Shown here: positions 27,556-33,389 of the stretch, piece by piece | Layout: the number at the start of each line of letters is the position of its first letter | Numbering within the stretch: the first letter of the stretch is position 1 | Assembly (NCBI RefSeq): GCF_001457795.1 | Contig: NZ_LN898211.1 | Coordinates: forward strand, 186,001-250,000 | Length of the DNA stretch: 64,000 nucleotides | Source of the DNA: Olsenella massiliensis | GTDB taxonomy: Bacteria > Actinomycetota > Coriobacteriia > Coriobacteriales > Atopobiaceae | Direction: 5' to 3' | Notes under the pieces: generated by a model | The model's input: only the letters and a program-made list of their open reading frames with translations | Database searches by the model: none | Told to the model about the DNA's origin: nothing | Made by a program: the position numbers and the translations under genes

Positions 27556-28187
27556 CCGTACGGCGACGCCGGACGGGTGCCCGCATGTCTCGCAAGGGGA
27601 CGTCGCGCACGTCTCGCGCACCGGCCTGTTGTCGATGCCGCACTCCACTCCGCGCTTGTCCGTGACGCTCATGCCCGCAGCGCCCCCCGCAGCTGCGCTC
27701 ATCTTGCAAACTGACTCGCTTTTCGCCGCAAATCGCGCCAAAACTGAGCCGAGAGGCACGATGAGCATGCGACCTGCGTGCTGACGCGCCGCATCGCGGC
27801 CAGTCGAGGCTGCGCGCCCCCGCAGCTGCGCTCATCTTGCAAACTGACTCGCTTTTCGCCGAAATTCGCGCCAAAACTGAGCCGAGAGGCACGATGAGCA
27901 TGCGGCCTGGAACGCGTCTGAGGAAGGCGCCCGCGTGGGAGAAGCCCGCGTGGACGCCCATGTGGGTGACGTTGTTTGCCCGCAATCGTGAGATTTTTTG
28001 TATCGGTTATGCCATGAGGGGGTATATCCGCCGTATCGAACGGGAAATCATGCGGTCGTCCGTCGGCTGCCCACCTGCGCGTCTGACGACAGGCTGACGC
28101 CTTGATGGGCGGGGTATGCCAGCAGGCGGTCGCTGCCGGGATCGATGTCCGGCTCCCGTGTTGGACTCGACAGAAGAGGTGTGTCAC
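27556..28187. other. Repeat-bearing intergenic region uppP / glutamate-type binding protein
   Basis: This 632-bp non-coding gap contains two 93-bp near-identical repeats (27684-27776 and 27817-27909) and a moderately AT-rich stretch at 27990-28060 that includes TTTTTTGTATCGG and GTATATCC, the likely promoter zone of the following ABC operon. No gene is supported. Confidence 0.6.
27684..27909. repeat. Pair of 93-bp direct repeats, 133-bp period
   Basis: Positions 27684-27776 and 27817-27909 align without gaps and differ at only about three positions (around the CGCCGCAAAT/CGCCGAAATT segment and GCGACC/GCGGCC). Each unit runs from CCCCCGCAGCTGCG to GAGCATGCGRCCTG and contains short open frames on the minus strand without a start context. 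No transposase is present. They may be copies of an interspersed intergenic element. Confidence 0.9.
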
Positions 28188-31107: not shown

Positions 31108-31866
31108 ATGACACCTGAGACCATCGAGCAGACGCCGGTCATCGAGCTGCGTCACGTTGACAAGCACTTTGGAGACCTGCACGTCCTCAAGGACGTCAGC
31201 CTTGCCGTCCACGCGGGCGAGGTGGTCGTTGTCGTGGGGCCGTCGGGGTCTGGCAAGTCCACGCTCTGCCGTACCATCAACCGGCTCGAACCCATCGATG
31301 GCGGCCAGATTCTCATCGAGGGCACGCCGCTTCCCCAGGAGGGCAGGGCGCTCGCCGCCATGCGCGCCGAGATTGGCATGGTCTTTCAGAGCTTCAACCT
31401 CTTTGCCCATAGGACGATCCTTGACAACGTGACCATGGGGCCGGTGGAGGTTCTGGGGGTGCCGCGCAAGGAGGCCGAGAGGGACGCGCTCGAGCTGCTG
31501 GGGCGCGTGGGCGTGCGCGAGCAGGCGGCCAAGGTGCCGGCGCAGCTTTCCGGCGGCCAGCAGCAGCGCGTCGCCATCGCCCGCGCCCTGGCCATGCATC
31601 CCAAGGTCATGCTCTTTGACGAGCCCACGAGCGCCCTTGACCCCGAGATGATCAACGAGGTTCTGGAGGTCATGGTGGGGTTGGCACAGGGGGGCATGAC
31701 CATGGTCGTCGTCACCCACGAGATGGGCTTCGCCCGTCGGGTCGGCCACCGCGTGGTCTTCATGGCCGACGGCCAGATTCTGGAGGAGGGCACGCCCGAG
31801 GCATTCTTCACGCATCCTCAGACCGAGCGGGCCCGCGACTTCATAGATTCCATCCAGGGACACTGA
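31108..31866 (+). CDS. Amino-acid ABC transporter ATP-binding protein (GluA/GlnQ-like)
   Basis: This 252-residue ATPase energises the adjacent importer. Walker A GPSGSGKS is at residues 44-51, Q-loop in [11 protein letters not shown], signature LSGGQQQR at about 148-155, Walker [13 protein letters not shown] at about 168-179 and the H-loop histidine in [12 protein letters not shown]. The polar-amino-acid class is indicated by the [13 protein letters not shown] stretch after the Q-loop. AAAGGAG precedes ATG 31108. It is the last gene of the operon and ends immediately in a four-copy 11-bp tandem repeat. It could also serve the orphan permease/binding-protein pair at 5716-7365. Confidence 0.97.
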
Positions 31867-31908
31867 TCGGGAGCTGATCGGGAGCTGATCGGGAGCTGAT
31901 CGGGAGCC
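31865..31908. repeat. Four tandem copies of an 11-bp unit (GATCGGGAGCT)
   Basis: The unit GATCGGGAGCT is repeated at 31865-31875, 31876-31886, 31887-31897 and 31898-31908, the last with T to C at its final base. It begins on the last two bases of the ABC ATPase stop codon. The array cannot be CRISPR because units abut without spacers. Copy-number slippage between strains is likely. Confidence 0.9.
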
Positions 31909-32060
31909 TGCGCGAGACGCCCTGAGCCTGGGGCCGACCGCGGCGCATGCGCCCGAATCGCCCTGGTTGCGGGCGCCGCGGTCGTGAAGCGTCCTGGTTG
32001 GCGCTGGTCAGCGCCCCAGATTGCCGATTATCAGGCGATTGCGGCTGAGCATGACGTGTG

Positions 32061-32171
32061 CTTAGCCAAAACACGACATATATATCAATAAAATGGGATT
32101 TTTCCCCCTTATTCTGATATAAGCGTCGTGTTTTGGCTAAGGGCAGTGGCGCGTGTTTTGGCTAAGCGCAC
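32061..32171. repeat. 17-bp inverted repeat around an AT-rich core, plus a third copy
   Basis: CTTAGCCAAAACACGAC (32061-32077) is perfectly inverted as GTCGTGTTTTGGCTAAG (32125-32141). A third partial copy, CGTGTTTTGGCTAAG, lies at 32152-32166. The 47-bp centre (32078-32124) is strikingly AT-rich (ATATATATCAATAAAATGGG...) for this genome and includes TTCTGATATAAG. There is no gene within. It could be a promoter/operator region, a mobile-element remnant or the target of an unknown DNA-binding protein. Confidence 0.85.
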
Positions 32172-32234
32172 ATCGACCGGTGCGACGTCGGCCCGTGGCC
32201 GTGGAAACGGATGGCGAGGCTGCTGCCGTCGGGT

Positions 32235-33389
32235 CTAAATCTGCTGCATGCTCCACAACGTGGTCGCGTACCACGACTGGTAGGTGGGCGGGCAATACTT
32301 GCGGGCAAAGTCCAGCGTCAGGTACCCGCCGTAGCCTCGGGCGATGCCTCGCACGTGAGCGCGGATGGCGGTGTCCCAGTCCGGCCAGCTCGAGCTTCCC
32401 CAGCCCCAGGCGTTATGCGGCCTGAAGCAGTAGCGCCCCTTCGTGCTCTCGGTGTTTGATATGGCGGGCGAGATGCGCGGGTCCACGCCGTTGTCCCAGG
32501 CGGCCTCGGCAAAGGTCCTGCCGTGCCCCGCCAGGGGCGACCCTGCCAAGAATGCGTCGATGCGGGCGGTCCACTGGTCCACGAAGGCGGCCTTGTCCGC
32601 CGGCCAGCTCACGTCGGCAGCGTCAGAGCCACCGGGGACCTTGGGTTTCTGCGCGTCGCCGTTTCCCTGCGCGTCGGGGCTGGGCGCGGGCTCGTCCCGG
32701 GGGATCTCTATGGTCGTTGCGGCGCCCGAGGCGTTCGTGAAGGTCTGCTGCCGCGCGGCGGCGGCTGACGCCTTCTCGATGGCAGCGCGCGCCTCGGCCG
32801 CCTCCCTGGCCTGCTGCTCCTCGACCTGTCTCTGGAGCTCCTTGCGGGCCGTCACGGCCTGGTCGAGGGCATCGCGGGCGTCCTTCTGCCGCTGGCTCGC
32901 CTCGGCGCGCTGGTCCTCGAGCTCCTGGCGCGTCGCCTCCATCTCGTGCGTGAGGTCCACGAGCTCGCGCACCTTTGCGGCGTTGTGCGAGGTGATGGAC
33001 GAGACGTACGCCATTGACTCGATGAAGTCGCCCAGGCTGTCGGCGTCGAGAATCATCCCCATCAGGTCAAGCGACCCCTCCTGAAGCCGATACTGACCCC
33101 TCAGGCCCTCGGCTGCGCTTTTGCGCACGTCTGGGAGCCGGGAGTTGATTGCGTCAATGTGCGCCGCGCTCTCGTCAATCTGCCGCTGCAGCTCCTCGAC
33201 GCGCCGCGTGGCGTCGTCATAGGCCCTGGCGGTGTCCTCTATCCGCTGCTGGGCGGCCGCCTCGTCCTGTTCAAGACGGGCGGGCTCCGCCAGGGCCACG
33301 GCGGCGGGGACCGCGCAGGCGCAGGCGACGACCAGGGCCACACGACCTAGCAGAGAGGGGCGGCGGACGCGGGTTCTGTTGGCGGTCAT
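32235..33389 (-). CDS. Secreted coiled-coil protein with C-terminal lysozyme-like domain
   Basis: This 384-residue exported cell-wall protein has a signal peptide at residues 1-35 (basic start, VALVVACACAVPAAVALA). A long coiled coil at about 36-215 resembles the PcsB/CwlO regulator domain that docks on FtsEX-type complexes. An acidic Pro/Ser linker follows (about 220-265). The C-terminal domain of about 120 residues contains NTESTKGRYCFRPHNAWGWG, the glucosaminidase/lysozyme-like signature with a candidate catalytic glutamate in SNTESTKG. It probably cleaves or remodels peptidoglycan. Two cysteines in the C-terminal domain may form a disulphide. The GTG/ATG start at 33389 lacks a strong ribosome site. 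Confidence 0.85.
   Translation of the reverse strand: MTANRTRVRRPSLLGRVALVVACACAVPAAVALAEPARLEQDEAAAQQRIEDTARAYDDATRRVEELQRQIDESAAHIDAINSRLPDVRKSAAEGLRGQYRLQEGSLDLMGMILDADSLGDFIESMAYVSSITSHNAAKVRELVDLTHEMEATRQELEDQRAEASQRQKDARDALDQAVTARKELQRQVEEQQAREAAEARAAIEKASAAAARQQTFTNASGAATTIEIPRDEPAPSPDAQGNGDAQKPKVPGGSDAADVSWPADKAAFVDQWTARIDAFLAGSPLAGHGRTFAEAAWDNGVDPRISPAISNTESTKGRYCFRPHNAWGWGSSSWPDWDTAIRAHVRGIARGYGGYLTLDFARKYCPPTYQSWYATTLWSMQQI

Follow-up and report, generated by a model that had tools for sequence, protein, structure and literature searches.

A dispersed family of intergenic palindromes in Olsenella massiliensis and a nuclease-like gene that looks like its partner

Small intergenic palindromes and a nuclease-like gene look like partners in an undescribed small selfish-DNA system in Olsenella massiliensis and related genomes. 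We analysed a 64-kb stretch of this genome (the window) and the palindrome found in it, and compared both with other genomes. The pairing of gene and palindromes is well supported by the sequence comparisons below, and we infer both a nuclease function of the protein and its role in spreading the palindromes. On balance we lean towards the reading that the window element is a solo REPIN-like palindrome, that its partner is the nuclease-like protein encoded on host contig C12 (Table 1), and that this protein spreads the palindromes through binding, cutting and repair. As far as sampled, the pair is confined to the host's order, the Coriobacteriales. Throughout, C9, C12 and C13 denote host contigs, and G- and L-numbers denote genomes and loci, respectively.

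Structure and setting of the window palindrome

The window element sits between the 3' ends of two convergent genes. Its 17-bp inverted repeat is perfect, with 47 bp between the arms and a third arm (32152-32166) 10 bp past the second, so that the arrangement given in a preliminary description of this DNA is borne out and is not a matter of chance. The AT-rich island in GC-rich surroundings holds as well, with 34% G+C in the element versus 62-71% across the window in 2-kb steps. Inward of the arms the symmetry persists, as 30 of 40 positions pair. A centre-based palindrome finder (score of at least 15) reported this element alone in the 64 kb, and at a stricter setting it gave zero palindromes in two mononucleotide shuffles of the window. 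Counted in the window alone with up to three mismatches, the 14-mer of the motif has three occurrences, all of them exact, and is not rarer there than in shuffles (at least three in 18 of 100).

Judged by its sequence, the third arm stems from a tandem duplication of the right arm over 25 bp. It is probably the original right end, since its own flank, and not that of the second arm, can be paired with the left outer flank.

Table 1. Features of the window (plain positions) and homologs of the nuclease-like gene in the host (contig:position)
Feature	Position	Strand	Remarks
Imperfect REPIN-like palindrome, ~80 bp	32061..32141	no strand	one of 13 in the host genome
Left arm, conserved outer end, CTTAGCCAAAACACGAC	32061..32077	- (half-site reads on minus strand)	
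Right arm, conserved outer end, GTCGTGTTTTGGCTAAG	32125..32141	+	
AT-rich inner part	32078..32124		inner half-site blocks (ATCAAT... and ATTCTGAT) enclosing the central loop
Third arm, CGTGTTTTGGCTAAG from 32152	32152..32170	+	25-bp offset from 32127-32145, 95% identity
Upstream neighbour, ABC transporter ATP-binding protein gene (PF00005)	31108..31866	+	
Downstream convergent neighbour, coiled-coil protein	32235..33389	-	Pfam matches all sub-threshold
Host homolog 1	C12:59479-60435		ATG ~65 bp from palindrome C12:60513, which is of the window's type
Host homolog 2	C12:354745		in-frame stop
Host homolog 3	C9:19422		no palindrome nearby

A simple sigma-70/terminator scan of 31800-32400 gave no promoter-like or terminator-like sites. 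This result and the position between convergent 3' ends lend no support to the earlier idea of a promoter island. No tRNA and no Rfam match at gathering score were found in the window, and the Rfam matches at the elements of the 12 element loci are sub-cut-off ones to miRNA-type models. Two further repeats were observed in the window, i.e. a direct repeat of ~100 bp (27677-27776 and 27809-27909, 95% identical) and tandem CTGATCGGGAG units, repeating every 11 bp, at the ABC ATPase stop codon (31863-31906).

The palindrome family in the host genome

Across the 1.82 Mb of the host genome there are 14 exact occurrences of the 14-mer and none of its reversed control. With up to two mismatches the numbers are 26 and 2, respectively, and most matches form inverted pairs. 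Aligning 12 host copies gave the half-site ATTYTGAYAYRWNYGTCGTGTTYTGGCTAMG; the conserved ends are separated by 46 or 47 bp in all 12, and their 16-bp ends are conserved while the central loops are mostly unrelated, that of the window element included. The model R2 finds 26 matches over both strands, i.e. 13 palindromes.

All 13 palindromes are intergenic by our own ORF calls, which rest on the longest ORF and on G+C bias. The ORF called at C12:60513 enters the palindrome, by 13 bp, only if an upstream GTG is taken as the start. The copies lie between convergent genes (the window, C9:52570), divergent genes (C12:72910) or genes in tandem, and their neighbours include genes for S10, L3, L5, an RNase R-like protein, an amidohydrolase, a phosphoglucomutase-type protein and YchF. 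Three copies (C13:37338, 468584 and 499942) are contained in intergenic repeats of 330-350 bp that are 79-93% identical. No target-site duplication is evident by eye at the 12 copies, all of which have strong predicted RNA hairpins (z from -4.0 to -10.7).

A second palindrome family, with the core GAATCCTGGGGAAACGCAAAA, flanks an Nramp gene of the host on C9 (palindromes at L011:3691-3775 and L011:5836-5937, Nramp interval L011:3866-5648), and it is tied to none of the three host homologs of the nuclease-like gene. A variant of this core also occurs inside the 330-350 bp repeats at the three C13 positions. In Collinsella aerofaciens an Nramp gene likewise has palindromes upstream, of a different type (L241:21070-21291). 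Shortly upstream of the ribosomal protein L5 gene we observed a palindrome both in the host (C13:724582, L017:3583-3661) and in Collinsella aerofaciens (L242:28074-28160), and in both it adjoins a non-ribosomal gene.

Palindromes in related genomes and covariation of the arms

Occurrence elsewhere in the genus, the check by which the preliminary description could have been refuted, has a mixed outcome. The exact 14-mer is absent from the four other genomes of the genus, one of which (G004) has the architecture. In the family as a whole, the model R2 (E 0.001) matches 37 of 140 genomes, the host included, and a single genome has as many as 31 matches when both strands are counted. The covariance model R1, built from the 12 host copies, matches 12 of the 396 class genomes scanned at E 0.01, and several of its weaker matches show the same plan with different arms. 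Comparing 52 copies, we observed that the arms tend to agree within a genome and to differ between genomes. No palindrome match was found in phages and plasmids by BLAST or in viral contigs by pattern. A pattern scan of public genomes gave four matches that we took by eye to be chance, three actinobacterial ones sharing one coding-looking sequence and an unrelated fourth.

We also searched the 140 family genomes for an inner pattern (ACARAATC, gap, GATTYTGT). It matches in 10 genomes, and since the control has matches in three, single matches outside the genus g33 may be due to chance. The repeated copies in G096 are not: this genome has five, and their outer arms, which lie outside the pattern, are palindromic and mostly common to the copies.

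The arms covary. In the set A3 (23 sequences), 84.8% of the cells pair, and the value falls to 31-46% when the partners are slid. Of 31 pairs, 26 have changed on both sides. R1 matches lacking the full plan or short were left out of A3 (L044, L046, L049, L051, L052, L056, L057 and L059), as was the host copy C13:499942, a near-duplicate of C13:468584. Some relatives in A3 were found through R1, which favours this structure, while the inner-pattern copies of G096, G100 and G106 and the palindrome-finder results at homolog loci are independent of it. A3 is a cleaner test than A4, because A4 counts each element on both strands. The covariation could stem from template-switch correction of palindromes without selection.

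The partner protein

The gene was reached through regions with at least two close palindromes: pairs in G096 and G102 enclose the same gene, which encodes an undescribed protein of 352 aa in both. Homologs were found in 29 of 31 genomes of g33 (E 1e-20), mostly more than one in each, and in 21 of 34 genomes tested from the rest of the family (E 1e-5). Outside the family 26 of 80 sampled genomes have homologs at E 1e-10, comprising 26 of 63 from the same order and none of 17 from the class outside the order. The host has three homologs (Table 1); the palindrome beside the first is on one side of the gene only, the promoter side.

In all 22 homologs compared, positions with E, S, R, Q, D, E, D, G and K are invariant. 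By eye, the invariant E, D and ExD with K resemble a PD-(D/E)XK-like motif, making the protein a candidate nuclease. The PADLOC models of AbiEi match the N-terminal half of 21 of the 22 homologs at E<=0.1 (best 3.5e-12, host best 3.8e-5), and AbiEi_4 of Pfam matches one of them. No nuclease match was found for the 22 homologs in Pfam, NCBIfam, PHROGs or PDB, and the last three gave nothing credible at all. Homologs are absent from the viral contigs searched. The dN/dS values of 17 pairs range from 0.12 to 0.32. In the loci we read, no AbiEii-like toxin was noticed beside the gene, the neighbour genes being listed and looked at unsystematically. Among open-licence PMC papers we found nothing on this system.

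Association between gene and palindromes

The association was assessed in 111 loci (110 genes) picked by protein similarity alone. L163 and L191 are one gene; both are kept in the 111 loci and the density counts, and one of them is dropped from the side counts (L191) and from the left-right, dispersed-copy and identity comparisons. Within 640 bp of the gene there are 159 palindromes with scores of at least 15 (1.14 per kb) versus 12 further out (0.058 per kb), i.e. a density about 20 times higher near the gene. Shuffling gave no palindromes in 60 loci.

Among the 102 genes whose flanks are complete, palindromes occur on both sides in 45, on a single side in 31 and on neither in 26. Broken down as both/one/none, g33 has 26/12/9, the rest of the family 3/11/11 and the other families 16/8/6, which makes the rest of the family the weakest case. 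The 26 genes without a flanking palindrome at the score threshold include host C9:19422 and the homologs of G001-G003. This class also holds decayed cases, since L192, seemingly empty at first, has decayed palindromes.

The two sides of a locus carry matching palindromes, with a median left-right score of 48 against 9 across loci, and 44 of 47 loci are above the 95th percentile of the cross-locus scores. L225, L227 and L158, two-sided by the finder, have left and right palindromes that do not match. Distinct gene lineages have distinct palindromes even in one genome, as in G097 (at C35, C1, C8 and C23). Across 80 loci, a palindrome score of at least 20 is reached by 80% of the pairs with protein identity above 80%, by 7-37% at 50-80% and by 0-1% below 50%, and under 45% none is shared. 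Shared ancestry contributes to this likeness; for pairs below 60% identity the rank correlation is weak (0.096, with 23 of 999 permutations as high).

The dispersed copies of the host point to the same pairing. All 12 other host copies have the gene-side palindrome of the host as their best match, the window copy with the top score (48). In G096 the gene is flanked on both sides by the palindrome type that is dispersed. Several observations speak against our reading. Across genomes only 26 of 43 dispersed copies match the gene-side palindromes of their own genome best, 26 genes (those of G001-G003 among them) lack a flanking palindrome, and the host gene has one on a single side. G100 has 31 matches (both strands) and no homolog at E 1e-20 in a genome that is 91% complete. 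The element had been described as a possible remnant of a non-autonomous mobile element or a binding array. Both descriptions come close: the element is a member of a dispersed palindrome family, and the N-terminal half of the paired gene resembles AbiEi, a repressor of winged-helix type that binds inverted repeats (PMC7319586).

Short palindrome arrays, and not single palindromes, flank the nuclease-like genes at L193, L196, L198, L205, L233 and L235. A 570-aa gene without a Pfam match lies between palindrome pairs in G106 and G102 (L114:3485-5581, L115:3152-5137), and a hipBA-like pair is enclosed by palindromes in G109 (L119:2950-5012).

Inheritance and movement

A locus beside an ABC transporter gene (PF00664, PF00005) is common to eight g33 genomes, G057 of another genus and the host, so the nuclease-like gene is old in this place. 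At this locus the transporter of the seven other g33 genomes is 93-98% identical to that of G096, versus 60-75% for the fast-evolving nuclease-like protein.

One occupied/empty site suggests that the palindromes may move. At the position of a palindrome in G090 and G112, ~140 bp are missing from G097, whose flanks there are 92-95% identical to those of G090; the 8-bp GGCGGGGC stands at both borders of the occupied site. Insertion with duplication and deletion between the 8-bp repeats both fit. A systematic search of the collected loci gave no second clean case.

Collinsella aerofaciens offers an example from another genome. In its 0.9-Mb record NZ_OY725717.1 the homolog WP_148332043.1, annotated as a hypothetical protein, is flanked by arrays of the TGTCTCGATCTGTAACA palindrome, which occurs at seven places in the record; a second type, AGTTGCGGTGAAATA, occurs at 20, and no homolog with the latter type is among the collected loci. 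Four 50-kb Collinsella stretches (200 kb) have 17 palindromes of the two types, 16 of them between annotated genes by comparison by eye with a gene table stated to be incomplete. The exception (L241:43895-43960) shares its 27 bp of overlap with the end of a hypothetical gene. L233, from genus g40 of the host's order, and the Collinsella record L240 share 94% DNA identity over 320 bp, in keeping with Coriobacteriales as this order.

Possible mechanism and alternative explanations

We propose that the AbiEi-like half of the protein would bind both arms, as double-stranded half-sites or an extruded hairpin, and that the PD-(D/E)XK-like half would nick or cut at the arms. Repair of the break or replication may then occasionally leave a new palindrome at another intergenic site. 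Palindrome and nuclease would co-evolve, giving genome-specific dialects, while the nuclease-like gene would stay put under purifying selection. Known AbiEi-type proteins bind inverted repeats (PMC7319586); in the present protein the N-terminal half may read the arms and the C-terminal half may cut.

The palindromes could instead be binding sites of the AbiEi-like protein (operators or DNA-architecture sites), which ordinary duplication would have multiplied and selection for binding maintained, with no spreading by the protein. According to PMC7319586, AbiEi and Rv2827c repress themselves via inverted repeats at their own promoters, and the host palindrome is on the promoter side of its gene; some copies have spread with a flank of 330-350 bp, as duplication would have it. 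However, in many species the palindromes also lie past the 3' end of the gene, the host copies occur between convergent genes and beside functionally unrelated ones with no regulon visible, and a nuclease-like motif is invariant in 22 of 22 homologs. We consider this explanation unlikely, if worth serious thought. That the palindromes are miniature elements of another transposase, with the nuclease-like genes as passengers or insertion hot spots, is improbable in our view. The hipBA-like pair (L119), the 570-aa gene (L114, L115) and the host Nramp gene between palindromes would agree with it, as would the 8-bp repeat bordering the occupied site and the palindromes of G100 without a detected homolog, but every gene lineage has its own palindrome with matched left and right copies, and the phage, plasmid and viral collections hold no palindrome match. 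The Y1/RAYT transposase (PF01797), the one transposase family searched for, gave no match in the host.

A role of the pair in defence or as a toxin-antitoxin device seems more doubtful still; the nuclease would then act against foreign DNA or its own host, and the palindromes would be a self mark, a sink that titrates the protein or an antidote. AbiEi serves as the antitoxin in a type IV system, its PADLOC models match nearly all homologs (21 of 22 at E<=0.1), and hipBA lies between palindromes in G109; against this, our unsystematic look at the loci read noticed no AbiEii-like toxin beside the gene, and 13 copies are few for a self mark and leave long palindrome-free stretches, with one palindrome in the 64 kb of the window. 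We give hardly any credence to the palindromes acting as RNA hairpins, be it as terminator, mRNA stabiliser or structured RNA. The strong predicted hairpins of all 12 copies and the arm covariation would suit such a role, yet there is no gathering-score Rfam match in the window (the sub-cut-off matches at the elements are of miRNA type), no terminator-like site at the window element and no strand preference, and the association with the gene would be left unexplained.

Returning to spreading by the nuclease-like protein, we put forward tentatively, as a possibility, that gene and palindromes form a two-part element of a new class, selfish or domesticated. Its AbiEi-like protein, with a PD-(D/E)XK-like nuclease half, would cut DNA and through the repair propagate palindromes private to it. 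The REPIN-RAYT way of life would then have been invented independently with an unrelated enzyme, and some genomes would contain several distinct pairs side by side. With a candidate enzyme and 80 gene loci having a flanking palindrome, binding, cutting and spread become directly testable, and the many dialects in one order form a data set on the joint change of a DNA-binding protein and its target.

Comparison with known systems

Dispersed palindromes are common in bacteria. ERIC and similar elements are intergenic imperfect palindromes of ~80-130 bp, as here; no partner gene is known for them, and, unlike the present ones, their arms are not known to vary from genome to genome. A classical MITE of a DDE transposon would have a target-site duplication and a related autonomous transposon; no such duplication is evident by eye at the 12 host copies, and an 8-bp border repeat is seen at one site of the relatives.

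AbiEi-type proteins, of type IV toxin-antitoxin systems, bind pairs of 23-bp inverted repeats at their own promoters (PMC7319586). The AbiEi-like N-terminal region and the inverted repeats beside the own gene fit AbiEi and Rv2827c in this respect. Unlike them, the present protein has an invariant nuclease-like motif in its C-terminal half, its gene has palindromes on either side as well as dispersed ones, and in the loci read we noticed no AbiEii partner. The GTAG and CGTC REPs and the TIRtrons (PMC3733652) share with our family the small, intergenic, dispersed palindromes and the enzyme genes decorated by inverted repeats that form families. The enzymes of TIRtrons, in contrast, are HUH tyrosine transposases, and the CGTC REPs have no known enzyme according to this paper, in which those Coriobacteriia genera that we sought by name are not mentioned.

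There is a close likeness to REPIN-RAYT, known from Pseudomonas and others (this and what follows on REPIN-RAYT from PMC3116915). In both, inverted doublets lie outside genes, have conserved 16-bp ends around a spacer and could form hairpins, with 71 bp between the ends in the main REPIN type and ~62 here. In both the enzyme gene is flanked by its own repeats (here the C12 gene of the host on one side and that of G096 on both), coexisting enzymes are each distinctive, one to a repeat type, and clusters with duplicated flanks occur. The differences are that the partner here is an AbiEi-like protein with a nuclease-like motif and not a Y1 tyrosine transposase, that SBW25 has 1,053 extragenic REP 16-mers versus 13 copies here, and that no GTAG-tagged REP hairpin was seen at the ends. 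A search for RAYT/Y1 (PF01797) gave no match in the host genome, which is 97% complete, with the control positive in 5 of 14 genomes. The palindromes with their gene would therefore work like REPIN-RAYT but are not a member of it, as the defining RAYT was not found in the host. If the nuclease does spread the palindromes, the REPIN-RAYT arrangement arose at least two times, with unrelated enzymes.
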